Positions 3,194-34,757 of a DNA stretch of 64,000 nucleotides are shown piece after piece. Origin of the DNA: Pseudomonadota bacterium. GTDB lineage: Bacteria > Pseudomonadota > Gammaproteobacteria > Acidiferrobacterales > Acidiferrobacteraceae. The position numbers were made by a program, and so were the translations under genes. A model generated the notes under the pieces. It ran no database searches. It worked only from the letters and a program-made list of their open reading frames with translations, and was not told the DNA's origin. Position 1 is the stretch's first letter, and each line of letters opens with the position of its first letter. The stretch is from contig JAJYGP010000018.1 of the NCBI GenBank assembly GCA_021785035.1, forward strand, positions 1 through 64,000, in the 5' to 3' direction.

Positions 3194-3511
3194 TCAGTCG
3201 CAGTTGCACTGGGCTTGCCAGCGAATGATGTGGCCGGGCGGCACCATCTTCTGAAGCCGTGGCAGGATGGCGTCGATGGTCGCCGGTTCATCAAAAAATT
3301 CGAGAACAAGAGGGAGGTGCACAGCGACACGCAAGAGGTCCGCGGAGTGCACGGCCCCTTGGGCGCCAAACCCCGCGATACCCCGAAATACCGTCACGCC
3401 ATGGACTTTATGCTGGTCGTGCAAGAATTCGAATATTTCGTGCATGAGGCCATGCCCTTCAAATTTATCGCCTTCCTTTATGTAGATTCGAACGACCGAG
3501 ATATCTTTCAT
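3194..3511 (-). CDS. DUF190 family protein
   Basis: MKDISVVRIYIKEGDKFEGHGLMHEIFEFLHDQHKVHGVTVFRGIAGFGAQGAVHSADLLR is a typical DUF190 sequence; directly downstream of crcB. Confidence 0.9.
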   Translation of the reverse strand: MKDISVVRIYIKEGDKFEGHGLMHEIFEFLHDQHKVHGVTVFRGIAGFGAQGAVHSADLLRVAVHLPLVLEFFDEPATIDAILPRLQKMVPPGHIIRWQAQCNCD

Positions 3512-3519
3512 AGGTCACC

Positions 3520-3894
3520 TTAAATATTGCGAGCTATCCACGCGCCGCCGATCGCGGCCCCAATACCCAGTATATTCGACGCCCCGATGTATAATGCCGC
3601 TTTTAATGCCTCCCCATCTTGTAATAGCACCAAGTTCTCCAGGGCAAACGTCGAAAATGTCGTATAAGTTCCTATGCCGCCGACAAGGATTCCTGCGCGT
3701 AGGCTCGGAGCCATACTAATACGATCCAGCGTCTCAAAAAACAGGAATCCCATAAGAAAGGACCCCAGAACGTTAATCGATAATGTCGCCCAAGGAAACG
3801 CGCGGCCAAAAACTTCCTGGACCAAAATACTTTGGCCATAGCGTGCCCACGCCCCTAGGATCGCAAAACCCGCAATAGTTATCCATGTCCACAT
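3520..3894 (-). CDS. crcB: CrcB/Fluc fluoride channel (paralog 1, end of the riboswitch-led operon)
   Basis: ILGAWARYG, INVLGSFLMGFLF, GGIGTYTTFSTFALE motifs; 124 aa. Confidence 0.95.
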   Translation of the reverse strand: MWTWITIAGFAILGAWARYGQSILVQEVFGRAFPWATLSINVLGSFLMGFLFFETLDRISMAPSLRAGILVGGIGTYTTFSTFALENLVLLQDGEALKAALYIGASNILGIGAAIGGAWIARNI

Positions 3895-3924: not shown

Positions 3925-5910
3925 TTACCAAAAAACCGACATCAGAATAAGGAGTAATGCGACTCCGATATAGGCGAGATAGGCATTCATAGAACCCATC
4001 TGAAGAACGCTGATGCGTAAAGCGAGGGTGCGCACAAAGCGCGTCACCGGCTCAAAAATCGTCGGGCCAAAGAGTGGGGCTTGGCTGTATTCAAAGCGCA
4101 AGGCCTTGATGAAATACGGGCGCTTCTCTATCCGGCGCTCAGTTACGGTGCGCGATCGGTAGATGAAATCATAAAACTGGCGGAGCGCGTTTGAGTAGGC
4201 GAGTGCTGTGGTGGCGCTTGCGGCGGGTAAGGTCCGCAGGCCGTGGGCCCAGACTGGTGTGCGTTTATGTCCTGATCGTAAGCCCCATGCCAGGAGACCG
4301 AGAGGCAAAAGTGCCAAAAGTGGCCCCACGAAAACAAGAAGTGTCGGTGAGATAAAGGCAAACGACGGCGTAAGTGGTACAAGAATGACGCCGCGAACCA
4401 TGAGCGAAGCGACGCTTCGCAGGCCGTCCGAACTGCCGGTGGCAAGCGCCTGAAGCCACCAAGGCATGCCGACGGCATAGCCCAGAACCGCAAGACCGAG
4501 ACCGAGGATGGCGATCCTTCGCACGCCGTGGGTGGGTGTCCCGCTGATTCCATTTTTACCAAGCAACCCGACACCAAAGACCTTAGTCAGGGTCGCTAAA
4601 GCGATGGCCGCCGTCAGCGCCACACCCGCGCCGCCAAAGGCCAGAGCGAGCCGCGCACCGATGCCATGGAGCTGGAAATCCTGAAAGATGGTCTGAAAGA
4701 GATACCATTCACTTACAAACCCCGCTTGCGGCGGCAATGCGACAAGACTCATGGCCGCGCACAGCGCCCCGATTCCTATTGTCCATGGGCTCAGCGCCAG
4801 CAGCCGACTTTGGGCGATCTGGTAGTGACCACGAGCTTCGTAGACATGGTCTGCGGTCAGCATTAAGGCGCCCTTAGCGAGGCTGTGACCGCCCAGTTGG
4901 AGAAGGCCCACGGTAAACGCAAATCCCGCCAGCAGAGAGAGATGTTCGCTCCGGAACAGCACCGCGGCCCCTAAGGCGACGACCGCAAGTCCGCTATTTT
5001 CAGCCGAGGAGAACGCAAGCAGCCGCCGCCAGTCTTCCTGCTGGAACGCATAGAGAATGGCCAGGATGGCCGTGAGGGTGCCGCTTATCACTATCACTTC
5101 GCCAAAGGCGGTCAGGGCCGAGAAGTGTGGTACCCACCGTAAAACGGCGCGCGCCAGTGCAAGCCACGCGACGTTCAAGACGACACCGGACAAGATGGCA
5201 CCACTTGCTCCGCTACCACTGCCATAGGCGCCCGGGTACCACTCGTAGAACGGGAGGATCCCCAGTTTAGCGCCAAAACCTACGAGGAATAAAAGCCCTA
5301 CGAAAAAAATTAGGACCGGCGAAGCGTTTGCGAAGGCCCCGGGCCAGGTCGAAAATTCGGGATGGGAGGAGCCGACGATCAGGATTGCAGCCAAGATGGC
5401 GACCGCCCCCACTTCGAGTAAGGCCAACATAAAAAACACTGCCCGGCCGTTTCGGAGGATAGGGCTTAGTTGGTCGGCCAACAGCATGACGGCCCCGCCA
5501 AGGCTCATGACTTCCCAGGCGATCAAAAAGGACACGGCGTCTTGAAGCCCGGCGACACCCAAGGCCCCCAAGAGACAGAGTGCCGCCCCCGTCGTCCAGG
5601 TAGCGGGATGCCGGCCAGGTGGCCCTCCGACCACCGCCATAAAGGCGGGTATAAGCCCCCAGCCCAGTAACCAGATGGCGGCCGGGCTAAGGTGGAACCC
5701 GACGGCCAGATTGGCAGACAGGAAGAGGACATCGGTCCTTGGTGACGCGTGCCCCACCCCGGCTAAGAGGCCGATCAGGGCCGCGCCTATCCCGAGCGCC
5801 AAGAGCGTGCGGCCAAGGAGCGGTTTTGCGATGCTGATCCCGAGCACGGCGGCGACAATCCACAAAAGCGCGGCGAGACTAAGGAGATCACGTTCCATAT
5901 CGGCCCCCAT
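3925..5910 (-). CDS. hydrogenase-4/complex-I-like proton-translocating antiporter subunit (HyfB/NuoL-like)
   Basis: 661 aa; AWEVMSLGGAVMLLADQ and VGFGAKLGILPFYEWYPGAYGSGSGASGAILSGVVLN motifs with conserved Glu and Lys. Confidence 0.88.
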   Translation of the reverse strand: MGADMERDLLSLAALLWIVAAVLGISIAKPLLGRTLLALGIGAALIGLLAGVGHASPRTDVLFLSANLAVGFHLSPAAIWLLGWGLIPAFMAVVGGPPGRHPATWTTGAALCLLGALGVAGLQDAVSFLIAWEVMSLGGAVMLLADQLSPILRNGRAVFFMLALLEVGAVAILAAILIVGSSHPEFSTWPGAFANASPVLIFFVGLLFLVGFGAKLGILPFYEWYPGAYGSGSGASGAILSGVVLNVAWLALARAVLRWVPHFSALTAFGEVIVISGTLTAILAILYAFQQEDWRRLLAFSSAENSGLAVVALGAAVLFRSEHLSLLAGFAFTVGLLQLGGHSLAKGALMLTADHVYEARGHYQIAQSRLLALSPWTIGIGALCAAMSLVALPPQAGFVSEWYLFQTIFQDFQLHGIGARLALAFGGAGVALTAAIALATLTKVFGVGLLGKNGISGTPTHGVRRIAILGLGLAVLGYAVGMPWWLQALATGSSDGLRSVASLMVRGVILVPLTPSFAFISPTLLVFVGPLLALLPLGLLAWGLRSGHKRTPVWAHGLRTLPAASATTALAYSNALRQFYDFIYRSRTVTERRIEKRPYFIKALRFEYSQAPLFGPTIFEPVTRFVRTLALRISVLQMGSMNAYLAYIGVALLLILMSVFW

Positions 5911-6679
5911 GCACTCGTGCAGGCATGCGGTCGAGTAGGACGAGGAGGGCGTGGATCAGGGCGGCCGGGTTGGGCGGACAGCCCGGAAGCCAGATATCAA
6001 CCGGGACAAGTCCCCCAAGCCCATGCCCCCCCGCATAATCGCCGTCGACCGGCGCGCCCGATACGGCACAAGTCCCAGTCGCCATCACTAAGCGTGGTTC
6101 AGGCATGGCCGCATAAGCGGCGAGAAGCGGGTCGCGCATCGGGCTTGTCACGGGCCCCGTGACCAGCAAAAGATCGGCAAAGCGTGGCGAGGGAGTGAAA
6201 AAGATACCGAGACGGTGAAGGTTATAGAAGGGGCTATCGAGGGCGGAGAGCTCCGATTCGCAGCCATTGCATGATCCGGCATCGATGTGGCGGATATGTA
6301 GGCTTTTGCGCAAAGAGCGGTCGGCCCGACTTTCTGTACCCCGTTTCGCGAGCGCTTGGGTAGCGCCCCGCACGAGGTCCTCACGATCGCGCGTCGCAAA
6401 GGCCCAATCGCATGTGGATTGGAGCGCCCCTGCGGGGCATGCCTCGACACACAGTTGGCAGGCGATACAGCGACCGTAATCAAGGCCAACTCCCGTCAGG
6501 GCATTGGAGGAAAGGGCGCTCGTGGGACAACTCGTCACGCAGTTTTGGCACGACGACTCACAGCGCGCGGGATCCAAGCGGGGAAGGCCTAGCACTCCGT
6601 CCTGGCCATCCGGGCCCGAATTGGGCCATGAGGTCGCAACTCGCCCCGCTTTCAGTCCAAACCATGTCCATAAGGGCAT
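5888..6679 (-). CDS. fused ferredoxin-type (HyfH/NuoI-like) and small subunit (HyfI/NuoB-like) protein
   Basis: N-terminal Cys clusters CESSCQNCVTSCP and CIACQLCVEACP; C-terminal SCNGCESE, ATGTCAVSG and LPGCPPNP, matching NuoB/HyfI N2-cluster ligands. Confidence 0.88.
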   Translation of the reverse strand: MPLWTWFGLKAGRVATSWPNSGPDGQDGVLGLPRLDPARCESSCQNCVTSCPTSALSSNALTGVGLDYGRCIACQLCVEACPAGALQSTCDWAFATRDREDLVRGATQALAKRGTESRADRSLRKSLHIRHIDAGSCNGCESELSALDSPFYNLHRLGIFFTPSPRFADLLLVTGPVTSPMRDPLLAAYAAMPEPRLVMATGTCAVSGAPVDGDYAGGHGLGGLVPVDIWLPGCPPNPAALIHALLVLLDRMPARVHGGRYGT

Positions 6680-6689
6680 TGCGGCCTCC

Positions 6690-8162
6690 TTAACGATCCG
6701 CCCCGGCTATGGTAAGCCCGAAGCTTGCTTCGTTGATGGCGTAATCCATCATGTTGCTGTCGTGTACGGTAAACGGAAACACCCGCCAATTCGAAAACGA
6801 CGGCGACTTGATCTTGACGCGCGTAAGCCGGTCCGCTTCGATGTGCACCGCGTAGTAGAGAGACCCGCGTGGTGTCTCTACCCATCCCAGACCTTCGCCC
6901 GAGACGCTCTTCGCGGCCGTTGTGAGTACCGGCCCCGGCGCGATGAGTGCGGCTGTCTGAATGATCAGCGCGAGAGCCTCGCGCAGGGACTCGGCGCGCA
7001 CCTCGGCCCGAGCCTGCGCATCCCCTAGGGTGCGTACGGGGACTTCAAAACGGAGTTGCGAATAGCCGGCATAAGGGTGGTCCCGGCGCAGATCACGGTC
7101 GAGTCCGGAGGCGCGGGCAACGGGGCCCGTTGCCCCTTGATCAGAGGCCACGTCCCGAGACAGTATTCCTGTGCCTATGAGTCGATCGAGGTAACTTGCG
7201 GTCCGACTGAGACGGCCAAGATAATTGATGCCGTCTCGGCCTATCTTGGTGAGGGCATTACTGAGTCCGGTCACATCAAGATCGCGCCGCAATCCCCCGA
7301 TCGCGAGCACATTGCGTAAGAAGCGCGAGCCCGTGAGACGCCCGTTGATTTGCTTGATCTCTTCTTCGAGCAGGAGGCCTTCGGCGGCGCCGACCTTAAG
7401 GGTCGTGGTTTTGGCTAGCAGCGCAAAATAATGGAAGTGGTTGTAAAGCCTTTCGAGCTCGGCCAGCAAGACCCGCAGAAGGCGGGCGCGTTCCGGCACT
7501 TCTATTCCAAGTGCTGCCTCCACGGCCTGACAGTAGGCAAGTCCGTGGCTTACGCTGCCGACGCCTGAGACTCGCTCGGCCAAGTACACGCCGCGCTCGG
7601 GGGCCATATCTTGGAACCGCCTTTCTAGTCCCCGATGCTTATAGGCCAAGCGCGCGTGGTAATGAATGATGGCCTCGCCTATATACGAGAAATGAAACTC
7701 CCCAGTCTCAAGCACGTCCCCTCGGATCGGACCCCATATGAGGTCTTGGACCTGGTCGGCCTCGATCTCGGGCATGGTCGGGGGGAGGCTTTCCCCCGTC
7801 CAGCGCGGGCAGTCCTTGCCCGGCGCAAGAGGGGGTGCCGAGAGATGGAAGCCCTCGTGTATGAGGAGTGGGTAGGGTTCCGGATGGCCGGCCACGCCGA
7901 TACCTGAGAGCTCCGTCATCTCTCTTTCATACCAGCCCAGCAACGGGGCAATGGGGGCTAGCGATGGCAGGTCCGCGGCCGAAGAGACGCGCAAGAGCAG
8001 AAAAGGCAGGTGCCGGCCTCGATTCACGAGATAGAGGATCTCGGGATCGTTTTGCTGAAAGCGCGCATAGGCCATCTCAAAGCGGCAGCCCTCGGCCAGC
8101 AGTGTCTGGGCCGTGGTGAACAGCGCCGCAGCCGAGAGGCGACGATCCTCACAATCATTCAT
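6690..8162 (-). CDS. hydrogenase-4 large-subunit-like protein (HyfG/NuoCD-like) lacking NiFe cysteines
   Basis: NuoC-like N-terminus plus NuoD/HyfG-like C-terminus; L1 region reads ERVSGVGSVSHGLAYC and L2 region INEASFGLTIAGADR, without the CxxC pairs. ATG at 8162 overlaps the upstream stop (ATGA). Confidence 0.88.
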   Translation of the reverse strand: MNDCEDRRLSAAALFTTAQTLLAEGCRFEMAYARFQQNDPEILYLVNRGRHLPFLLLRVSSAADLPSLAPIAPLLGWYEREMTELSGIGVAGHPEPYPLLIHEGFHLSAPPLAPGKDCPRWTGESLPPTMPEIEADQVQDLIWGPIRGDVLETGEFHFSYIGEAIIHYHARLAYKHRGLERRFQDMAPERGVYLAERVSGVGSVSHGLAYCQAVEAALGIEVPERARLLRVLLAELERLYNHFHYFALLAKTTTLKVGAAEGLLLEEEIKQINGRLTGSRFLRNVLAIGGLRRDLDVTGLSNALTKIGRDGINYLGRLSRTASYLDRLIGTGILSRDVASDQGATGPVARASGLDRDLRRDHPYAGYSQLRFEVPVRTLGDAQARAEVRAESLREALALIIQTAALIAPGPVLTTAAKSVSGEGLGWVETPRGSLYYAVHIEADRLTRVKIKSPSFSNWRVFPFTVHDSNMMDYAINEASFGLTIAGADR

Positions 8163-9613
8163 CGGGTCACCTGCGCCGCTTGAACAAAGAAGTGCCATAA
8201 AAACGGCGGCCACCACAGACCCAAGACGGTCAGAGGAATCAGGGTAAGCCACATAGGGACCGTCATCCACGGACTAAGACGCATATCGGGCCGGTGGTCG
8301 TTGACCGGACCCGCGCCGAAAACCATTTGCCGAAAGTGTTGGAGGAAGCCGATAAAAATGACGATCAACAGCAAAACCATGACCGCTACCGCCCAGATGT
8401 TGGGGCTTGCCATCCCGGCCCGCAGAATGGCGATCTCGCTTTGGAAAAGGCCAAAGGGCGGGGCGCCGGTGATAGCGACCGCTCCGAGCAGCCAGATGAT
8501 TCCGGTCACAGGGTAGAATTTGAGAACGCGCCGCATCATTCTCATGTCCTTGCTGCGGTAGGCGCGCATCATATTTCCGGCGCCAAAAAACATCAGGGAT
8601 TTATTGAGGGCGTGGTTCAGCATGTGGTACATGGCGCCGGCGATACCGAGAATGCCCCCAAAACCAAAGCCAAGAGCGACGATACCCATATGCTCGACGC
8701 TGGAATAAGCCATGAGGCGCTTTGCACCGGTTTGCCGGACAATAAAAAGTCCCGCGATCACAAGCGAGAGTGCGCCCAGGACCACCAATGCGGTCTGACC
8801 CTCAAGGGCGGCACCCCCGGCCTTGAGGATGCCCAGGAATCGTACGATCCCGAGCATGGCGGTATTCAAGAGCGCGCCCGAGAGCATGGCGGAGACGGGC
8901 GCCGGGCCCTCGCTGTGAGCGTCGGGAAGCCAGGTGTGCATGGGGGCGAGACCGACCTTGGTCCCAAAGCCCACAAGGGTTAATAGGAAGGCAAGAAGCA
9001 GAAGTGGCTTAGGGCTTAAGGCCGCAATCGATCGCAGGTGGCCCCAGGTCATACTATATACCGGACCCAACTGCAACGTTCCCGCCCAGTAGAAAAATAC
9101 GATACCAAGGAGTGCCAGCGAAAGGCCGGCCGAGACGATGATGATGTACTTCCAGGCCGCCTCCGCACTCTCTGCCTCGCGTTCAAACCCGACCAGGAAG
9201 GCGCTTACGATGGTCGTGAGGTCGATCGCGATCCAGTAAATCCCGGGATTATTCATAAACGGCGCAATGAACATGGTCAGAGCAAATCCGCACAGGAGCG
9301 CATAGAAGCCCGGCAGACGGCGGGCCTCGTCGGTAAGAAGTCGCATGTAGCCGATCGCGTACAACGAGGCCAGCGCATAGACGATGGCGACGCACAGGAC
9401 TATCCAGAGACCAAGAGGCGTCAGGAGCAGGAAGTGGTCAGCTAGAACGATTTTGCGATGGGGCGCTGTGAGGATCAGGGCGAGGCTCGCGACCAAGGTC
9501 GCGCTAGCGGCCGCGAGGTTGAGGTACTCAGCGAAGCGGGGTCGGCCAATAAGCAGGATAAGACTGATCGCAAGTACCGGCACAAGCCACAGACAGAGAA
9601 TAAGGGCGCCCAT
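8159..9613 (-). CDS. hydrogenase-4-like antiporter subunit (HyfF/NuoM-like)
   Basis: LVGFGTKVGLAPMHTWLPDAHSEGPAPVSAMLSGALLNTAMLGIVR signature; 484 aa polytopic. Confidence 0.9.
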   Translation of the reverse strand: MGALILCLWLVPVLAISLILLIGRPRFAEYLNLAAASATLVASLALILTAPHRKIVLADHFLLLTPLGLWIVLCVAIVYALASLYAIGYMRLLTDEARRLPGFYALLCGFALTMFIAPFMNNPGIYWIAIDLTTIVSAFLVGFEREAESAEAAWKYIIIVSAGLSLALLGIVFFYWAGTLQLGPVYSMTWGHLRSIAALSPKPLLLLAFLLTLVGFGTKVGLAPMHTWLPDAHSEGPAPVSAMLSGALLNTAMLGIVRFLGILKAGGAALEGQTALVVLGALSLVIAGLFIVRQTGAKRLMAYSSVEHMGIVALGFGFGGILGIAGAMYHMLNHALNKSLMFFGAGNMMRAYRSKDMRMMRRVLKFYPVTGIIWLLGAVAITGAPPFGLFQSEIAILRAGMASPNIWAVAVMVLLLIVIFIGFLQHFRQMVFGAGPVNDHRPDMRLSPWMTVPMWLTLIPLTVLGLWWPPFLWHFFVQAAQVTR

Positions 9614-10293
9614 CAGCCCACCAACTTTTGGAGGTAGCGGCTACTGGTTGTCCCCGCATGCAGTTGTAGGTAGCGCATGAGCATCCCGAACGTGAGCACG
9701 ATGATGAGAAGATCGAAGAGAATCACCAGTTCAAGTAAAAGGGGCATCCCCGGAACGAGAATCTGCGAGCCGAGAAATATGCCGTTTTCGATAACGAGTA
9801 GCCCGAGGATGTGACTAATCGCCTCCGATCGTAGGATCATCATCAGAAAGCCGATCAACTTGAGGCTCAGCATACAGGTGAGGGCGAGCACAATGATGGT
9901 GTCGGCGGTGTGCAGGCTGTGGCCGATTCTGCGCCCCACGACAAAGGCGATGATCACAAGGATCGTGCCCAAGACCAGGCTCGACGAGGGTTTCAGGAAA
10001 GCGGTGAACTCGCGTTCCAGATGGAGCCTGTCGGCGAGCCGCAAAATGAGATAGGGCAGCAGGCTACCGCGGAAGAGCGCTGTTAGGATGGCGATGACGT
10101 AAAGCTCGGGGTAATGCCCAAAGTACCCCACTGCGGCGGACAGGCCGGCTATGGTCCAGGACTCGAGAGCAAAGGCATAGATGTGATTCTTGAGCCAATG
10201 CGAGCCCAGCATAACAAAGGAAAGAATGAGGCTAATGATGGCCAGCATACTAAAGAGAGAGGTGGCCAGCGGGTTGATGTGAAGGATAAACAT
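9613..10293 (-). CDS. hydrogenase-4-like HyfE membrane subunit (NuoK-related)
   Basis: 226 aa polytopic protein in HyfE position, LGLLVIENGIFLGSQILVPGMPLLLELVILFDLLIIVLTFGMLM. Confidence 0.85.
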   Translation of the reverse strand: MFILHINPLATSLFSMLAIISLILSFVMLGSHWLKNHIYAFALESWTIAGLSAAVGYFGHYPELYVIAILTALFRGSLLPYLILRLADRLHLEREFTAFLKPSSSLVLGTILVIIAFVVGRRIGHSLHTADTIIVLALTCMLSLKLIGFLMMILRSEAISHILGLLVIENGIFLGSQILVPGMPLLLELVILFDLLIIVLTFGMLMRYLQLHAGTTSSRYLQKLVG

Positions 10294-10299
10294 GCGCGC

Positions 10300-11244
10300 T
10301 TACACCTGGTACGCGACGATCGCGAGTACGGCAAAAAGGAAGGACGCGGCGAGAGGCTCCTGATATCGGTAGAAGCGCAGGCGCGACTGCATCGTGTCCA
10401 CTATGACCATAACAAGACCAAGGGCTGCATACTTCCCAACGATCCAGCCGATGGCTAGGAGTACGGCCCCCAGGTGACCCGAGTGCGCAAGTCCCCAGGG
10501 AAAAAGAAATACGTTTAGGAAGATGGTGTACAGGATGAACTGCTTCATCCAGCCGGCCCATCTCAGTAAGGCCAGCAAGGGCCCAGAATATTCGAGCACT
10601 CGGGCCTCGTCGATCATATATATCTCGTAGGGAATCGTTGAATGAATGGGCAGGCGATCCGTTTCGACGGTCAAAAGGATCAGAAAAGCGGCCACGAGAA
10701 AGACGTGCGCCGGGCTCCAGTAGGCGACGGGGCTCGTCGCGAGCAGGTGGTTTGCTACGAACGGCAACATGGCATGGTCAAGGAAGGTAATGCCAACGAA
10801 TACCAGAATCAGCGTAGGCTCAGCCAAGATCGCTAGCATAACCGCCCGGCTCGACCCAAGTCCCCCGAAGGGTTGTCCCGAATCCAAGCCCGCCAGGAGG
10901 ATCATGAAATTGCCGAGCGTCAGGATGAGCCCGCCGCCCAAGATGTCGCCCATGTCCGAGAGTGGCAGGGGGTAATTCGTCAAAACGGGAATCAAAAGCG
11001 GCACGGTCATCATGGCCGTAAAGGCGATAACGGGTGCGGCCCAAAATATCCACGACGCGGATTCGGGTACGAGTTGTTGTTTGTGGAACAGCTTCCAGAG
11101 ATCGCGATAGGGCTGCACGAGAGAGGGCCCGCGCCCGCGTTGTACGCGCTCCTCGGCCGTCGCGATAAAACCGTGAAGCAGGGGGGCGAGTGCGAGCGTG
11201 AGTAATACTTGCCCGCACTGGAGAATGATAGGGTTCAGAACCAT
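10300..11244 (-). CDS. hydrogenase-4-like HyfC/NuoH-like membrane subunit
   Basis: PSLVQPYRDLWKLFHKQQLVPESASWIFWAAP ... ILAEPTLILVFVGI; likely ATG at 11244 preceded by GGAAGAG (the ORF track extends to a TTG at 11265). Confidence 0.88.
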   Translation of the reverse strand: MVLNPIILQCGQVLLTLALAPLLHGFIATAEERVQRGRGPSLVQPYRDLWKLFHKQQLVPESASWIFWAAPVIAFTAMMTVPLLIPVLTNYPLPLSDMGDILGGGLILTLGNFMILLAGLDSGQPFGGLGSSRAVMLAILAEPTLILVFVGITFLDHAMLPFVANHLLATSPVAYWSPAHVFLVAAFLILLTVETDRLPIHSTIPYEIYMIDEARVLEYSGPLLALLRWAGWMKQFILYTIFLNVFLFPWGLAHSGHLGAVLLAIGWIVGKYAALGLVMVIVDTMQSRLRFYRYQEPLAASFLFAVLAIVAYQV

Positions 11245-11271
11245 CTGCTCTTCCATCGACGACAAGACGTT

Positions 11272-11286
11272 CCGCGCGTGGCGCGG
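11272..11286 (-). other. hairpin between aptamer and start codon (possible expression platform)
   Basis: CCGCGC-CAC-GCGCGG 6-bp stem on the minus strand just 3' of the aptamer; followed by a U-containing stretch but no strong U-run. Confidence 0.4.
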
Positions 11287-11289
11287 ACC

Positions 11290-11341
11290 ATGCAGGAGTC
11301 ATCAGCCTCACGGCAGTTTACGGCGAACCCCATCGCCATCT
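11290..11341 (-). ncRNA. fluoride riboswitch (crcB-motif) aptamer in the 5' leader of the Ehr-crcB operon
   Basis: Minus strand reads GATGGCGATGGGGTTCGCCGTAAACTGCCGTGAGGCTGATGACTCCTGC: P1 stem GGCG/CGCC, AAACTGCC...GGCTGATGA core, GCC/GGC hairpin, and pseudoknot pairing of loop GGGGUU with GACUCC (4 Watson-Crick, 2 G-U). Confidence 0.93.
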
Positions 11342-11347
11342 GGTGCA

Positions 11348-11375
11348 AGAATACAAGACCCATGGGTCTTGTCAA
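11348..11375 (-). promoter_or_regulatory. sigma70-like promoter of the Ehr-crcB operon with 20-bp perfect palindrome across the spacer
   Basis: Minus strand TTGACA-N16-TATTCT; palindrome ACAAGACCCATGGGTCTTGT at 11353-11372; predicted start about 11341, exactly at the aptamer 5' end. Confidence 0.75.
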
Positions 11376-11536: not shown

Positions 11537-12385
11537 TCAAACTGGCGTCGGACCTTGCTTGCGACGATCGACAGGTGGAGTTAGCTGCGGTTTTTGGATC
11601 TCCGATTGGAGGAACGGTTGGCACCCCAACCGTAGTGCGATCTCCGTATCGGCGCACAATACCGCAACGTAGAGCGTGTCGCCGTGCCAATACCGATCCT
11701 CCCGAAGAAGACGTGAGCACAGCGCCATCCAGCCCGGACGGCCATGGGCCGCTCGCAGGATCTGCCGCTCCTGGCCGGCCATCAGGTCGGGCATCGTCTC
11801 CGGGCCAGCCCCGCGCAGATACGCCCGAAGTTGCCTCGCCGAGGATCGCGGCATGGCGACCAATGGCAGGGCCGGACAGCGCGCGCGCAACGCCTCCCGC
11901 TCACGTTGTCCGTCGACATCCAGAACCAGGGCGACCCCCGCCAAACCGCCGCGCAGGCGATGCAGGAAGCCCACCGTCGCGGCATTGAGGTGTTCCACAT
12001 GATCAAAAAGCAGTACGCCTCTGCGCTGCTCGGCGGCGGCCGCCAGTCGTACCCGTATGCGGTGCTGCGTCAGACCGGCGATATCGATCTCCGGGTAGGC
12101 GCGCGCGAAGGTCCGCGTCATGTCGCCAAGGCAGGTGGTGGTGTCGGCAATCCCTGATGGGGTTCCTTCGCGCTGGAGGCGCGCATGCAAGGCGCGCAAG
12201 AGCGTGGATTTGCCGCTCCCCACGGGACCGTACAGAACGAGGTGCTCGCCGCGCGCAAGCCGCTCGGCGATCCTTGCCCGAAAGGGCCGCGCGCGCCGCT
12301 TGTTGAGCGTCACACCCGGATCGCGCAAAGACCGGGGCGTCGTAGTGTCGGTAACGCGGTCGCGCGAACAGCGCCCGGGGCTCAT
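11537..12385 (-). CDS. P-loop AAA-type ATPase
   Basis: Walker A GPVGSGKST, Walker B-like GVLLFDHVEH; ATG at 12385 overlaps the MFS gene stop (ATGA). Confidence 0.7.
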   Translation of the reverse strand: MSPGRCSRDRVTDTTTPRSLRDPGVTLNKRRARPFRARIAERLARGEHLVLYGPVGSGKSTLLRALHARLQREGTPSGIADTTTCLGDMTRTFARAYPEIDIAGLTQHRIRVRLAAAAEQRRGVLLFDHVEHLNAATVGFLHRLRGGLAGVALVLDVDGQREREALRARCPALPLVAMPRSSARQLRAYLRGAGPETMPDLMAGQERQILRAAHGRPGWMALCSRLLREDRYWHGDTLYVAVLCADTEIALRLGCQPFLQSEIQKPQLTPPVDRRKQGPTPV

Positions 12386-13605
12386 TGTTGCGACCGCGGC
12401 CAACGGGTCAGTAAACCCGCGCCCAGAACGGCCAGGATCGCGGCATAAATGAAGCCGCTGGCAAGCGACACATGCGCCCACAAGAGACCTACGACAAGAC
12501 TGCTTACCAGATCGCCGATGCCACTGATTGTCCCCAAAAGGCCGAATCCAGTGGCGCGGACATGATCGGGAAGGAGTTCTGCCGCCAAGGCACTCTCGAT
12601 CGTATCGACGATCGCGATGTAGACGCCGCCCAGCACGAACAGGGGGCCCAGGACGATCACATGGCGCGCCGACACCAGGAATCCGATACACATGAGCGCG
12701 AATAACAGATAGCCCAGTACCAACAGTGGCCGCTTGCCGGTCTGCTCGCTCAAAAGGCCGACAGGGTAAGAAAAGGCGGCATAGGCGATATTGAAAAGGA
12801 TGTAGAGGCCGATGGCCCAGCTGTCAGCCCGCTGCACACCCAGGCTCGCGACAAGAGACTGGCGCGCATAAAGGATGAGCAGCATGGGACCGAAATTGCC
12901 CAGCCCAAATACCCCGGCGGCGGCGACGAATCGCAAGAAGTCGCGGGGCAGCGAGATGAGGCTTTGGCGAAAGCCGATATTGTGCCCGGGACGCGGCGAG
13001 GGTTCGCGCACCATGAAAAGGACGATTAAGATCGTCAAACCACCTGGGATCAGCGCTACCAGAAAGATCCCGCGATACCCCCAGTGGATGGCAAGCAGAC
13101 CCAGAGCGATCAGTGGTCCTATGACGGCGCCTAGGGTATCGGCAGCACGATGCAGCCCAAAGGCGCGCCCCAGATAGGCGATGGGGACACTGTCGGCGAG
13201 CATCGCATCGCGTATCGGACCCCGCGCCCCACGCCCGACCCAGGCGACGACCCGCACGACCAGCACCTGTGCCCAGATTGTCGCGAAGGCCATGACGCCC
13301 TTGAGCGCGGTAAGCAGATACCCGGCCACCAGGAATGGCTTGCGGCGACCCGCGCGCTCGCTGTAATGCGGGAGCCAGATTTTTGCCAGGCTCGCGAACA
13401 AGTCGCTTACCCCCTCTATGGCTCCCACGGCGCCGGAGCCCCCGCCGAGCGCCACCACGAAAAACGGCATGATCGATGTCACCATTTCATGGCCCATGTC
13501 GGAAAACAGGCTCAGAAGGGCGATCGCTGCGACGTTCCTCGTCAACCAGCGTCTGCTGGTCGCGCCCCCTCGATTCGCCCTATCTCCCATGGTGTCTCTC
13601 GTCAT
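12382..13605 (-). CDS. MFS transporter
   Basis: About 12 hydrophobic segments; GRGARGPIRDAMLADSV and GRAFGLHRAADTLGAVIGP typical of MFS_1. Confidence 0.88.
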   Translation of the reverse strand: MTRDTMGDRANRGGATSRRWLTRNVAAIALLSLFSDMGHEMVTSIMPFFVVALGGGSGAVGAIEGVSDLFASLAKIWLPHYSERAGRRKPFLVAGYLLTALKGVMAFATIWAQVLVVRVVAWVGRGARGPIRDAMLADSVPIAYLGRAFGLHRAADTLGAVIGPLIALGLLAIHWGYRGIFLVALIPGGLTILIVLFMVREPSPRPGHNIGFRQSLISLPRDFLRFVAAAGVFGLGNFGPMLLILYARQSLVASLGVQRADSWAIGLYILFNIAYAAFSYPVGLLSEQTGKRPLLVLGYLLFALMCIGFLVSARHVIVLGPLFVLGGVYIAIVDTIESALAAELLPDHVRATGFGLLGTISGIGDLVSSLVVGLLWAHVSLASGFIYAAILAVLGAGLLTRWPRSQQ

Positions 13606-13779: not shown

Positions 13780-14072
13780 CGGCGAGTCATTAAGGATCTT
13801 CAACATACGAACAACTTTCAGCCCCACATTGACGTCGAGCGGATGCTGAAGAGCGCAGTCCGTGAGCCTTGCCGCGATCCCGGCTCATGACACATGCTGA
13901 GCGCGACGATGGCACACATACGCGCATAGTCCAAGGGATGTCCCAGGGACATAAAGGGGTTTGTCACAATAATTGCGGGTGTCGAGATCCTGCTGATCGG
14001 CGCCGCATGCGGGACCGACCGGCACGCCATCGGATATCCAGGCGAAACATCGAGGACAGTACACTTTCCCCA
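13780..14072 (-). pseudogene. decayed zinc-ribbon/HEAT-repeat protein
   Basis: Minus-strand pieces in different frames: YCPRCFAWISDGVPVGPACGADQQDLDTRNYCDK, then LGHPLDYARMCAIVAL, then LQHPLDVNVGLKVVRMLKIL, with frame changes between. Confidence 0.55.
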
Positions 14073-14234
14073 CGACCATTCCCCTTGCCGGCCCGGTTCC
14101 GCCGGCCGATCCATGATACCGCCCCTGGGGCCGATTCGTCGGCCTACCGGCCGGGGCCTGCGTGCCGTAACAGCCGGCCTTCCACGACAGGCTCACGCCG
14201 GATCTTGCGGCGACCGCGAGCTTCGGCGCCAATC

Positions 14235-15500
14235 TCAAGGACCAAACCCGGTGCCTCCGTCAAGCTCGTGCTCGATCTCGAGAAGACGGTTATATTTGGC
14301 TATCCGCTCGGAGCGGCACACCGAGCCGGTCTTGATTTGGCCACCGCCCATGGCGACCGCAAAGTCTGCGATAAAGTCATCCTCAGTGTCGCCGGAGCGG
14401 TGGGAAACGATGAACGCCCAGCCGGCCTTGCGGCACAACTGAATTGCCTCGATCGCCTCGCTGACGCTACCGATCTGATTGGGCTTGATCAAGGCGGCAT
14501 TACAGGTCTTTTCCTTGATCGCGCGCGCTATCAGGCCTGGGTTCGTGACCAGGATGTCATCCCCCACGATCTGGATCTTGTCCCCGAGCCGCGCGGTCAG
14601 ATCATGGAAGCCGCGCCAATCGTCCTCGGCAAGACCGTCCTCGATCGAAATGATCGGGTACTTTCCGACCCACTCCTCAAACAACGCCACCAGGGCCGTG
14701 GAATCGGTGATGCCTTGATCGCTTCGCGTGAGATGGTAAGCACCGTCCTCGCAAAAGGCGCTGGCCGCGGGATCGAGCGCCAGGGCGATGTCGACGCCCG
14801 GCTCGTAGCCGGCCGCGCTTATCGCCTCCACAATCACCGCGCAGCCCTCCTCATTATCGTCGAGAGGTACGGCAAACCCACCCTCATCTCCGACGTTTGT
14901 CGGGTAGCCTCGGGCCCTCAATATGCGTTTTAGGGCCGCAAAGGTCTCTACGCCATACCGCAAGGCCTCCCCGAAACTGTCGGCGCCCACGGGCACGATC
15001 ATGAACTCTTGAAAATCCAGGGTGGAGTCACTGTGGCTGCCGCCGTTTAGGATGTTGATCATGGGTCTGGGAAGCCGGTTTGCACCGACACCTCCCAGAT
15101 AGGCGTACAGCGGCATGCCAGAGGCTCGTGCTGCGGCGCGCGCCACGGCCTGCGAAACACCAAGGATCGCGTTGGCGCCGAGATACATCTTGTCGGGCGA
15201 GCCGTCGAGGTCGATCATGAGGCGATCGATCTTCGACTGATCGCGAGGATCCATGCCTCGTATCGCCGGGCCGATGATGGTATCGACATGACCCGCCGCC
15301 TTGAGGACGCCCTTGCCGCCATAACGGCCGGCATCCCCGTCCCGAAGCTCCAAGGCCTCGCGTTTTCCCGTGGACGCCCCGGACGGAACCGAGGCCGTGC
15401 CGACGATGCCGTTGTCCAACACCACATACATCCGGATGGTGGGCTGGCCGCGGGAATCGAGAATCTCCAGGGCACGCACCGATTCGATACGAAGAGTCAT
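14235..15500 (-). CDS. eno: enolase
   Basis: ALEILDSRGQPT, SVPSGASTGKREALELRDGD, NILNGGSHSD, GDDILVTNP, ALIKPNQIGSVSEAIEAI, SHRSGDTED. Confidence 0.97.
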   Translation of the reverse strand: MTLRIESVRALEILDSRGQPTIRMYVVLDNGIVGTASVPSGASTGKREALELRDGDAGRYGGKGVLKAAGHVDTIIGPAIRGMDPRDQSKIDRLMIDLDGSPDKMYLGANAILGVSQAVARAAARASGMPLYAYLGGVGANRLPRPMINILNGGSHSDSTLDFQEFMIVPVGADSFGEALRYGVETFAALKRILRARGYPTNVGDEGGFAVPLDDNEEGCAVIVEAISAAGYEPGVDIALALDPAASAFCEDGAYHLTRSDQGITDSTALVALFEEWVGKYPIISIEDGLAEDDWRGFHDLTARLGDKIQIVGDDILVTNPGLIARAIKEKTCNAALIKPNQIGSVSEAIEAIQLCRKAGWAFIVSHRSGDTEDDFIADFAVAMGGGQIKTGSVCRSERIAKYNRLLEIEHELDGGTGFGP

Positions 15501-15644: not shown

Positions 15645-16856
15645 TTATCCCGCCGACTCGCCATACATGTAATCGCGCGTCAAAGGGAGCGGGCTTGTGA
15701 CCCTGGCGTGACTCTTGACGGCCAGAACCTGGTAGATGGAAAGCCAATTGTGCGCAAAGCTGTACGCGCAGCCAGCCAGATATGTGCGCCATATTCGCCA
15801 GCGTTTTTCGCCGGCCAAGGTTCGGCACTCCTGGGATGCAGCCTCGAAACGCTCCACCCAATGGTTCAAAGTGAACGCATAGTGACGGCGGAGGTTCTCT
15901 ACGTCGACGATCTCGAGGCCCGCGTGACTCATATTCTTGAGGACAAGGCCGATATGGGCCAATTCGCCGTGCGGAAAGACATAGTTTTCTATAAACTGGC
16001 CACCGCCAAACGGTGTTTCGCAGGAATCCGGATCGGTCGATGTAATGCCGTGGTTCATCGCAACGCCATCGATATCCAGAAGGATATGGACACGCGAGAA
16101 GTAGTCGCGCATGTTCTTGAGTCCGACATGCTCGAACATGCCCACGCTCGTTATGCGATCAAACTTCCCCGTTATGTCTCGATAGTCTGCGAGGATTACC
16201 TCGCAGCGGTCCTGCAGGCCTTCGCGTGCGATCCGCTCGCGGGCGTACTCGTGCTGGTTCTGGGACAAGGTGATGCCGAGAACCTTGGCCCCATACGTCC
16301 CCGCCGCCCGGCGCGCGAGCGCTCCCCATCCGCACCCGATGTCCAGCAGCCGGTCGCCGCGCCGGATCCTGAGTTTGCGAAGGATATGGTCGATCTTCTG
16401 GGTTTGGGCCGCCTCCAGACTGTCTGTCGGCGCGCGGAAATAGCCGCACGAGTAAATCATGTCCCGATCCAACCAGAGGCCATAGAATTCATTTGAGACA
16501 TCGTAATGGTAGGCTATGGCCTGGGCATCTATATTTTTGTCGTGCCAGGCAAGTCGCGGCTTGTGCCGGAACGGGCGCCGGGCATTGTCGGGATGGGCGG
16601 CCAACTCGGCGGCTATCGCCACGACGTCCATGATGCGGCCCTCGATATCGATACTTCCTTCTACGTAACCCTTTCCGAGGTTATCGAGGGTTGAATCGAG
16701 GAGGCAGCGGAGGCCGGCCATAGATGCCACATGGACTGTGACGGTAGGGGTGGCGCCGAGATCGATAACAATGCCGTTCCAGAGGCGAACCCTCAAGGGG
16801 ATCGGCTTGAGTTTCCACCGCGATTTAAGATGCTCTACGAGCGTCTGCCGGATCAT
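15645..16856 (-). CDS. cfa: cyclopropane-fatty-acyl-phospholipid synthase family protein
   Basis: IAYHYDVSNEFYGLWLDRDMIYSCGYF, LLDIGCGWGALARRAA, GMFEHVGLKNMRDYF, QFIENYVFPHGEL. Confidence 0.93.
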   Translation of the reverse strand: MIRQTLVEHLKSRWKLKPIPLRVRLWNGIVIDLGATPTVTVHVASMAGLRCLLDSTLDNLGKGYVEGSIDIEGRIMDVVAIAAELAAHPDNARRPFRHKPRLAWHDKNIDAQAIAYHYDVSNEFYGLWLDRDMIYSCGYFRAPTDSLEAAQTQKIDHILRKLRIRRGDRLLDIGCGWGALARRAAGTYGAKVLGITLSQNQHEYARERIAREGLQDRCEVILADYRDITGKFDRITSVGMFEHVGLKNMRDYFSRVHILLDIDGVAMNHGITSTDPDSCETPFGGGQFIENYVFPHGELAHIGLVLKNMSHAGLEIVDVENLRRHYAFTLNHWVERFEAASQECRTLAGEKRWRIWRTYLAGCAYSFAHNWLSIYQVLAVKSHARVTSPLPLTRDYMYGESAG

Positions 16857-17304
16857 GATGCCCTCAATGGATGCAGCGTCGTTGGGGTATCACGGAACAC
16901 GCGGGCGCCTTCCTTGACTGTCGAACCATGTGACCACGAAGCCCTCTTCGACGGTTTACGGAATCCGGACCACAGGGGAACTTGGGTCTTTGCAGAAAGG
17001 CCGACGCGGTCCCACATTTTCCTGTGTTCCAGGACTATGTAGGCATCATCAGCCGGTAGGGCGGTTATGAGGAGGAATGCCATCTCCTGATCTCGCCGAA
17101 AAGCCTACAGGAGCGATGTCCGTTACGCAAGACCCTGGCGTCAGGCGGAGGATAGAGCAGCACAATGGGTCATAACGGTCTTCTAATCATGAAAATGTGT
17201 CTGGTCCTTGGGGGCTGTAGCCCCCTCTGTGAGAACCGTGAGGCCGTTTACCGGGAAGGTTTTGTGAAAGAGGCCGTCATGGTGGGTCGGCGTAGGGCCT
17301 AGGC

Positions 17305-18996: not shown

Positions 18997-20397
18997 ATGT
19001 GGGGCGACCGGTCGCACGCGGCTCCCCGATCTATAGGCCTCATGCTGCGCAGGTGGCACCGGGTGTTCCCTTGGGACGGGTTTCGTGCCATGAATACGCA
19101 GATTGGGTATCCTGTGGGGGGGGGTGGCGTGAAGGGTTTCCGCTTCTTAAGGCGAGTGGGCGGTGAGCCCGGCCGGGTTAGGACGCCGGCTGACATGCTG
19201 CGTCTGGATCCTTGGGTGCGTGTGGCCCAGGGCCTTGAACAAATGCGCCGGCGTTTGCGTTTCCACTTGTGGTTCCCCCATGCCCCCTTGGCGCTGTTCG
19301 TCGCGCTTTTGGGGGCCGTCAATCTCCTGCCGACTCTCCATTTCCTGGCGGCGACTCATCATGGACCACTCCTTTCACGCCTTCTGACGGCGCGGGTCTT
19401 GCATGGTGTTCCCCAGGCTGTGGCCGGCCTGATGTTGTTGGCCATGGCCGGCGGTCTCTTGTGGCGGTCGCGACTCTCATGGGCCCTAGCCTTACTCCTG
19501 ACCGCCGCCACGCTCGCCATTGCTTGGCATCGGCCAGCGGGAGTCTCTTCGACCCTCACCGCGTTTAATGGGTTGACGCTTCTTGCGCTCTTGCTGTTTC
19601 AGCGTCGATTTGACCGTTCAAGCCTGGCGGCGGGGACCTTGTTTGCCGCGGTCAGCGTACTTTTGCTACTCGGCTATGCCGTTTGCGGCGCTCTTGTGCT
19701 GGGGCAGGGGTTTGCGCCACCCATAACAAAACTGACGACCGCCTTGTATTTTTCGGTGGTCACTATGTCGACCGTCGGTTACGGGGATATCGTACCGAAG
19801 ACTGCGGATGCCCGGTTTTTTGTGATCTCCGTGATCATTCTGGGGATTACGGTGTTTGCGACCTCGATATCGGCTGTTATTGTGCCGGCTGTGACGGGCC
19901 GCATGCAGCGACTCATGAAGGGAGAATCGACCCGTATGACGCGTAAAAATCATTACATCATCGTGGGTAACACCTCACTCTCCCGCAACACCTGTCGCGA
20001 GCTCCTGGCACGGCACCTGCCGGTGACCGTGGTCGTCACGTCCTCCGTCGATCCCACCGAGTTCGGGGACGCGGATGTGATTGTCGGAGATCCGAGCGAT
20101 TCGGAGACCCTGCAAAGGGCCGGTGTTTTGCAAGCGGCCGCCGTGCTGGCGCTCCGGGATGACGATTCGGAGAATGCCTTCACGGTGCTTGCGGTCAAGG
20201 AATTGAGCACCGATATTCGCACGGTCGCGGCGGTCAACCACAGCAAAAACATGACACGCGTCCGCAATGTCCATCCTGATATGGTGATAGCGCCCCAGGT
20301 TATGGGAGGTGAACTGTTGGCTATGGCCTTGAACAACGAGCCGATGGACAGTGATACCGTGATAACGAAGTTGTTTCATGGGGATACCAAGGCTTGA
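18997..20397 (+). CDS. kch: Kch-like potassium channel with TrkA-N (RCK) domain
   Basis: Selectivity filter TMSTVGYGDIVP; C-terminal NHYIIVGNTSLSRNTCRELLARHLPVTVVV Rossmann domain. True start may be downstream of 18997. Confidence 0.9.
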   Translation: MWGDRSHAAPRSIGLMLRRWHRVFPWDGFRAMNTQIGYPVGGGGVKGFRFLRRVGGEPGRVRTPADMLRLDPWVRVAQGLEQMRRRLRFHLWFPHAPLALFVALLGAVNLLPTLHFLAATHHGPLLSRLLTARVLHGVPQAVAGLMLLAMAGGLLWRSRLSWALALLLTAATLAIAWHRPAGVSSTLTAFNGLTLLALLLFQRRFDRSSLAAGTLFAAVSVLLLLGYAVCGALVLGQGFAPPITKLTTALYFSVVTMSTVGYGDIVPKTADARFFVISVIILGITVFATSISAVIVPAVTGRMQRLMKGESTRMTRKNHYIIVGNTSLSRNTCRELLARHLPVTVVVTSSVDPTEFGDADVIVGDPSDSETLQRAGVLQAAAVLALRDDDSENAFTVLAVKELSTDIRTVAAVNHSKNMTRVRNVHPDMVIAPQVMGGELLAMALNNEPMDSDTVITKLFHGDTKA

Positions 20398-34379: not shown

Positions 34380-34757
34380 CTACAGTCTTCGTCCTAAGGT
34401 TGCCCCGATAAACGCGGCCGACAACCCCAGGAAAACGGATAGGGTGACGTAGGTGATGGCCCGTGCGACGCGCCCCTCCTCGGCCAGGAGAAGCGCTTCC
34501 ATGGCGAATGTCGAGAAGGTCGTAAAGCCCCCGATACCGCCGACTAGGATGCCGAGCCGTAGGGAGGCCGAGACATCGGAGGTCCGTTCCAAGGTGACGA
34601 TGAACAAAAAGCCCATCAAAAAACTGCCCAGGACGTTGATGAGCAAGGTGGCGTAGGGGAACTCTTTGCCGACCAGGGCCTGGATACCGACCGAAACGCC
34701 GTAACGCGCCCAACACCCCAGGATGCCGCCGATCGCTATGGCAAGAAGATTGTTCAT
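34380..34757 (-). CDS. crcB: CrcB/Fluc fluoride channel (paralog 2)
   Basis: ILGCWARYG, LINVLGSFLMGFLF, GGIGGFTTFSTFAMEA. Confidence 0.95.
   Translation of the reverse strand: MNNLLAIAIGGILGCWARYGVSVGIQALVGKEFPYATLLINVLGSFLMGFLFIVTLERTSDVSASLRLGILVGGIGGFTTFSTFAMEALLLAEEGRVARAITYVTLSVFLGLSAAFIGATLGRRL

Follow-up and report, generated by a model that had tools for sequence, protein, structure and literature searches.

A fluoride riboswitch heads an operon of eight genes on the minus strand of the stretch of DNA analyzed here (64,000 nucleotides; "the window"). With very high confidence, its first six genes are predicted to encode an energy-converting hydrogenase-related (Ehr) complex and not a hydrogenase (Table 1). 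The riboswitch-linked complex, for which the label Ehr-F is used in this analysis, may be a redox-driven proton pump that serves fluoride export and is co-induced by fluoride; the probability of this reading is put at roughly 0.5.

Table 1. Location of the fluoride-linked features in the window.
Feature	Position	Strand	Evidence or remark
Sigma-70-like promoter, TTGACA-16 nt-TATTCT	11348..11375	-	10/12 consensus matches
Fluoride riboswitch aptamer (RF01734), operon head	11286..11346	-	Rfam match and covariation
Short leader with GC hairpin CCGCGC-CAC-GCGCGG and Shine-Dalgarno-like GGAAGAG before ATG	11245..11285	-	without U-run terminator
Gene 1, NuoH/HyfC/HycD-like membrane subunit	10300..11244	-	PF00146, 2e-31; closest solved structure formate hydrogenlyase (FHL) 7z0s_D, 120 bits
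Gene 2, HyfE-like membrane subunit	9613..10293	-	hydrogenase 4 membrane subunit match, 6e-12; synteny
Gene 3, HyfF/NuoN-like antiporter subunit	8159..9613	-	PF00361, 1e-54
Gene 4, HyfG/HycE-like large subunit, 30 kDa and 49 kDa fused	6690..8162	-	without [NiFe] cysteine motifs and without complex-I quinone ligands
Gene 5, NuoB/HyfI-like subunit fused to 2x[4Fe-4S] ferredoxin domain; 12 ligand cysteines	5888..6679	-	profile match
Gene 6, HyfB-like antiporter subunit	3925..5910	-	profile/homology matches
Gene 7, CrcB/Fluc fluoride channel subunit	3520..3894	-	PF02537, 85.5 bits (cut-off 32.9)
Gene 8, DUF190 protein (PF02641)	3194..3511	-	92.5 bits
Second fluoride riboswitch (RF01734), heads cfa-enolase-MFS	17033..17096	-	55.5 bits, E=1.2e-12; absent from the initial annotation
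Cyclopropane-fatty-acid synthase (cfa), first gene after riboswitch 2	15645..16856	-	PF02353, 2e-98
Enolase, second gene after riboswitch 2	14235..15500	-	PF00113, 1e-108
MFS transporter, third gene after riboswitch 2	12382..13605	-	PF07690
Second CrcB gene, without riboswitch in front	34380..34757	-	homology; no RF01734 match there

When the whole window was searched with Rfam 15, the fluoride riboswitch model RF01734 matched at 11346..11286(-) over its full length (1-64) with 56.7 bits (E=4.7e-13), the curated gathering score being 34 bits. As far as sequence can show, it is essentially certain that this leader is a fluoride riboswitch. The initial annotation had proposed one at 11290-11341 and had suggested comparison with RF01734; the significant match bears the proposal out, and the minus-strand leader that had been quoted was found where it had been placed. 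P1 (GGCG/CGCC), P2 (GCC-GUGA-GGC), the pseudoknot (GGGGU/ACUCC), and the other elements recognized by eye are all there. Thus, the location stood, but the proposed interval misses several bases of the whole aptamer (11286-11346). In an alignment of 113 riboswitches from related loci, pairing was retained in 97.9% of the cells, and two-sided changes were found in 10 of the 12 base pairs; for the pseudoknot, the corresponding figure was four out of five. The covariation score (0.251) was not reached in any of 500 shuffles (0.091), and registers slid against each other gave 0.051 at most. P1, P2, and the pseudoknot are therefore supported by covariation, which shows that the RNA has been maintained. 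With its stems, pseudoknot, and core sequence, the aptamer does not differ from the class (crcB motif, RF01734); what sets it apart is that it mainly controls genes for an Ehr complex, CrcB being encoded late in the operon. The same search of the whole genome returned two RF01734 matches and no others.

The 3' end of the predicted promoter lies two bases ahead of the aptamer, and TTGAC(A/C) boxes occupy the equivalent position in most relatives; the RNA should thus begin at the aptamer. How the aptamer might act on expression was considered for two mechanisms. Control via an intrinsic terminator is unlikely: no terminator with a U-run was scored 3' of the aptamer in the window leader, and just 5 of the 59 related leaders contained a run of five T. 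Pairing that masks the Shine-Dalgarno sequence seems doubtful as a general mechanism: the longest helix averaged 6.1 bp across the 59 leaders, compared with 5.6 in shuffles (6 bp in the window leader), and a convincing switch (p<=0.01) was seen in only five of them. By analogy with the characterized members of this RNA class, the operon would be turned on by fluoride binding.

The eight minus-strand genes behind the riboswitch overlap or are separated by at most 31 bases. Judged by related loci, gene 1 begins with the ATG at 11244, although its ORF is open from a TTG at 11265. That a complex-I/hydrogenase-4-like operon follows the riboswitch, as initially annotated, agrees with the family matches of the subunits. 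The first gene is indeed NuoH/HyfC-like (PF00146, 2e-31) and not crcB; CrcB had been overlooked, however, being encoded by gene 7 of the same operon and followed by DUF190. Membrane subunits of the NuoH/HyfC, HyfE, and antiporter-like types together with HyfG/HyfI-like soluble subunits are features of Ehr complexes, which in evolutionary terms stand between hydrogenases and complex I.

Among solved structures, the large subunit is most closely related to HycE of Escherichia coli formate hydrogenlyase. The RVCGIC motif of HycE reads RVSGVG in gene 4, and the C-terminus of gene 4, ASFGLTIAGADR (pattern ASFGLTxAGxDR), is complex-I-like, DPCxxC/CxxC being absent. The motifs with the four [NiFe]-binding cysteines are absent from the large subunit of every relative checked; among the 77 aligned sequences, both N-terminal cysteines are missing, the first position being occupied by Ser throughout and the second by Gly or Asp. 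The quinone ligands of complex I (Tyr87 and His38 in Thermus Nqo4) align with Gly and Leu, respectively, in gene 4. No genes for an NADH dehydrogenase module (NuoEFG) were found in the operon, and none of its eight genes encodes a formate dehydrogenase. A true formate hydrogenlyase or [NiFe] hydrogenase was consequently rejected on account of the missing nickel ligands, and complex I proper on account of the missing quinone ligands and NADH module. The predicted structure of the large subunit (AlphaFold) had a mean pLDDT of 63.8, confidence being low where the active site would be expected.

Compared with formate hydrogenlyase and hydrogenase-4 (E. coli HycBCDEFG, Hyf), the subunit set and the closest solved structures (7z0s) are alike, but Ehr-F lacks the [NiFe] ligands and the operon-borne formate dehydrogenase. 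With respiratory complex I, it shares homologous 49/30 kDa, NuoB, NuoH, and antiporter subunits and a similar large-subunit C-terminus, whereas the NADH module and the Nqo4-type quinone ligands are not shared. The HyfF-like and large subunits also match the membrane-bound sulfane reductase Mbs (6u8y), a relative of complex I and hydrogenases that is not itself a hydrogenase; the large subunit matches formate hydrogenlyase better, and Mbs is linked to sulfur metabolism, not to fluoride. NuoH-, HyfE-, HyfF-, and HyfB-like membrane subunits and a large subunit free of [NiFe] motifs are common to Ehr-F and the other Ehr complexes. Ehr-F differs from the latter in forming a clade of its own, in the fusion of a ferredoxin domain to the NuoB-like subunit, and in being governed by a fluoride riboswitch and linked to CrcB/DUF190. 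An Ehr paralogue that shares genomes with Ehr-F lacks the riboswitch.

All 12 Fe-S cysteines of gene 5 are invariant among 76 sequences, including those of the proximal cluster (C137, C140, C204, and C234). Also conserved in relatives are K155, K219, K298, K338, H226, and H334 of gene 3 and E133, K215, K346, and K443 of gene 6. Electron transfer and ion movement by the complex are thus both probable. No report on activity, electron donor or acceptor, or pumped ion of the closest Ehr relatives was found in the literature.

Large subunits in 96 genomes around the window fell into two groups, one sharing >=55% identity and the other about 35% or less. In the former, a riboswitch preceded the genes and CrcB and/or DUF190 followed them wherever the contig was long enough. 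An alignment of large subunits from this group, and thus a query blind to the RNA, retrieved 255 relatives from 85,462 species genomes. The best 80 of these 255 included Acidiferrobacter, Acidithiobacillus, Thiomonas, Rhizobiales, Acetobacteraceae, Acidobacteriota, and Actinomycetota (Acidithrix). In 58 of the 64 loci among them with readable upstream sequence, gene 1 was preceded by a riboswitch at a distance of 19-150 nt (median 50); in the other six it was farther upstream (in locus L156 by ~340 nt, where only Rfam found it). Paralogue loci of the second group, encoding Ehr complexes of 30-35% identity in the same order and class, had a riboswitch in 0 of 23 cases, although some of these contigs were short upstream. 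With Rfam alone, riboswitches were detected ahead of gene 1 in nine of nine dedicated loci versus none of nine paralogue loci. The riboswitch-linked large subunits form one clade (SH-aLRT 100), and there is hardly any doubt that Ehr-F is a dedicated fluoride-linked clade. Its members occur in acidophiles of the Pseudomonadota, Acidobacteriota, and Actinomycetota and on plasmids of Burkholderia and Caballeronia; presumed non-acidophiles (Martelella, Ancylobacter, and Burkholderia) are also represented. Among 398 evenly drawn Pseudomonadota genomes, ~65 fluoride riboswitch loci preceded CrcB, enolase, or MFS genes where profiles matched, and no HyfC/HyfG homologue was found behind such a riboswitch; a second even sample of 399 Pseudomonadota genomes contained no other genome with the clade. 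This rarity indicates that the association of riboswitch and Ehr is specialized.

Within the best 80 of the 255 relatives, the gene directly behind gene 6 encoded CrcB in 33 of the 56 loci that could be tested; DUF190 followed in 36 of the 56. As CrcB is missing from the operon in the remaining 23, its coupling to Ehr can be functional at most, not physical. Genomes of the genus lacking CrcB in the Ehr operon contain a riboswitch-CrcB-DUF190-CrcB operon elsewhere. In Acidithiobacillus (loci L087, L088, L090, L091, and L114 near 12410), a further fluoride riboswitch is situated just past DUF190, followed first by a small ORF and next by a second, divergent set of Hyf-like genes (36% identity). 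A zinc-ribbon/HEAT protein follows DUF190 in this genus (L087 11931-12341); by eye only, a similar cysteine-rich stretch was noticed in the window ORF 13885-14238(-), between the genes for enolase and the MFS transporter.

On plasmids of Burkholderia (L245 and L247) and Caballeronia (L246), one of them conjugative, the operon (~50% identity) is accompanied by fluoride riboswitches at a density of three to six in 17 kb. In the annotated Burkholderia records, a pyrophosphatase gene is near the operon; the B. cenocepacia plasmid also has genes for CrcB and a HAD hydrolase there, and that of B. multivorans has MFS and cfa genes. These regions are apparently fluoride-resistance islands. One of their riboswitches precedes a pair of genes for a hypothetical and a dynamin-family protein. 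In one plasmid record, the large subunit bears the RefSeq label "nickel-dependent hydrogenase," which its sequence contradicts.

The second riboswitch of the window heads cfa, enolase, and MFS genes. Pairing of a riboswitch with cfa was also seen in loci L008, L009, L129, L145, and L154; the literature search yielded nothing on a fluoride-controlled cfa. Homologues of the window MFS family directly follow fluoride riboswitches, with CrcB next, in loci L196, L197, L199, L204, L205, L209, and L221, and in that one genus of large genomes the family is possibly a further fluoride-linked transporter. Between the two riboswitch operons lies an AAA-ATPase ORF (12691-11537(-)), a 39% identical homologue of which (L147 1383-649(-)) directly follows a fluoride riboswitch. 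A potassium-channel-like gene (Ion_trans_2 and TrkA_N; 18997-20397(+)) beside the fluoride cluster is near the operon in several relatives, too. Two CrcB genes are expected for a two-subunit channel, here split between loci; exactly two were present in 16 of 16 members of the order checked, and the CrcB encoded at 34380..34757 is possibly the partner subunit of the operon CrcB.

Formate hydrogenlyase genes downstream of crcB-motif RNAs had been mentioned in the initial annotation, and "formate hydrogen lyase" is in fact listed among the genes following this RNA (Weinberg et al, 2010; PMC2864571). A review from 2024 (PMC11139923) reads the association as formate oxidation in fermentation and connects genes of this class with shifts in metabolism. 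At the operon described here, the formate-metabolism reading fails. An extra hyf cluster of Acidithiobacillus caldus, its role "less obvious," was treated as a hydrogenase (PMC3826726), and the function of Ehr complexes in Sulfobacillus was described as unknown (PMC4378227). A literature search that had most subscription papers outside its reach revealed no published connection of Ehr with fluoride or CrcB.

Fluoride export depends on the proton-motive force, fluoride acidifies the cytoplasm, and Na+/H+ antiporters are, after exporters, the next commonest genes under the fluoride riboswitch (PMC11139923). In an acidic environment, HF would diffuse into the cell and dissociate, and CrcB would let F- out. 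The net HF/F- cycle would import protons and move charge, lowering both cytoplasmic pH and membrane potential, at a cost that would rise with fluoride and acidity. As fluoride export would import protons in this way, fluoride would co-induce a proton pump. Low-potential electrons would enter Ehr-F via the ferredoxin-NuoB-like subunit and pass to an acceptor at the large subunit, which would be neither protons reduced via [NiFe] nor quinone in its usual site; the energy would drive proton export via the NuoH-like and the two antiporter-like subunits. An electrogenic proton pump encoded on the transcript of CrcB itself would close the cycle and pay the proton cost of fluoride export. Against this proposal stand the 23 of 56 loci whose operon has no CrcB and the members of the clade in presumed non-acidophiles. 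The second riboswitch operon may belong to the same program: cyclopropane-fatty-acid synthase might make the membrane tighter, and enolase, a known fluoride target, would fit as the fluoride-sensitive enzyme.

Other roles of the complex have to be weighed against this proposal. Fluoride hits enolase and other enzymes and might thereby upset the ferredoxin/NAD(P)H balance; Ehr-F could then be a route for electron disposal or redox rebalancing that reoxidizes low-potential carriers, or makes them in reverse, with ion pumping being secondary. Such a role would agree with the presence of enolase in the linked riboswitch operon of the window and beside many relatives, with the strict conservation of the electron-input subunit, and with the metabolic shifts to which a review ties the gene class (PMC11139923). 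It is nevertheless unlikely, as it explains neither the company of CrcB and DUF190, rather than of metabolic genes, nor the concentration in acidophiles. The tight riboswitch link even in the 23 of 56 loci without CrcB in the operon would also suit a complex that expels fluoride itself, an antiporter-like subunit moving F- or HF at the expense of electron transfer instead of helping CrcB. This seems improbable, given that residues associated with the proton path are kept in the antiporter subunits and that two CrcB genes are also present in every genus genome checked; furthermore, no precedent is known for anion transport by this protein family. Also improbable is that Ehr-F constitutes a separate complex-I-like class for fluoride resistance, catalyzing a new redox reaction at a metal-free, quinone-free site and either expelling fluoride itself or being physically joined with CrcB and DUF190.

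E. coli formate hydrogenlyase is the closest solved relative of several subunits, and its name is used in the literature, so that removal of protons as H2 under fluoride stress by a true formate hydrogenlyase or hydrogenase-4 might come to mind. Barring an unprecedented mode of nickel binding, this is refuted by the missing ligands (both N-terminal cysteines in 77 of 77 large subunits, and a C-terminus that is not DPCxxC), and the operon is devoid of a formate dehydrogenase gene, which makes it very improbable. That the riboswitch is there by chance, or as a passenger arrangement without meaning for the complex, is scarcely credible in view of the 58 of 64 relatives (best 80 of 255) from several classes and three phyla, as opposed to none of 23 paralogue loci, and of the covariation by which the RNA is seen to be maintained.

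As the pairing of riboswitch and Ehr-F recurs in three phyla and on plasmids, the putative pump probably serves specifically in resistance to fluoride and acid. Those Ehr complexes found described carry no assigned function. The Ehr-F clade brings its own predicted inducer, fluoride. "Formate hydrogenlyase" genes behind fluoride riboswitches need not imply formate metabolism, which corrects a reading current in the literature, and Ehr-F suggests how acidophiles may meet the cost in protons of exporting fluoride through a passive channel.
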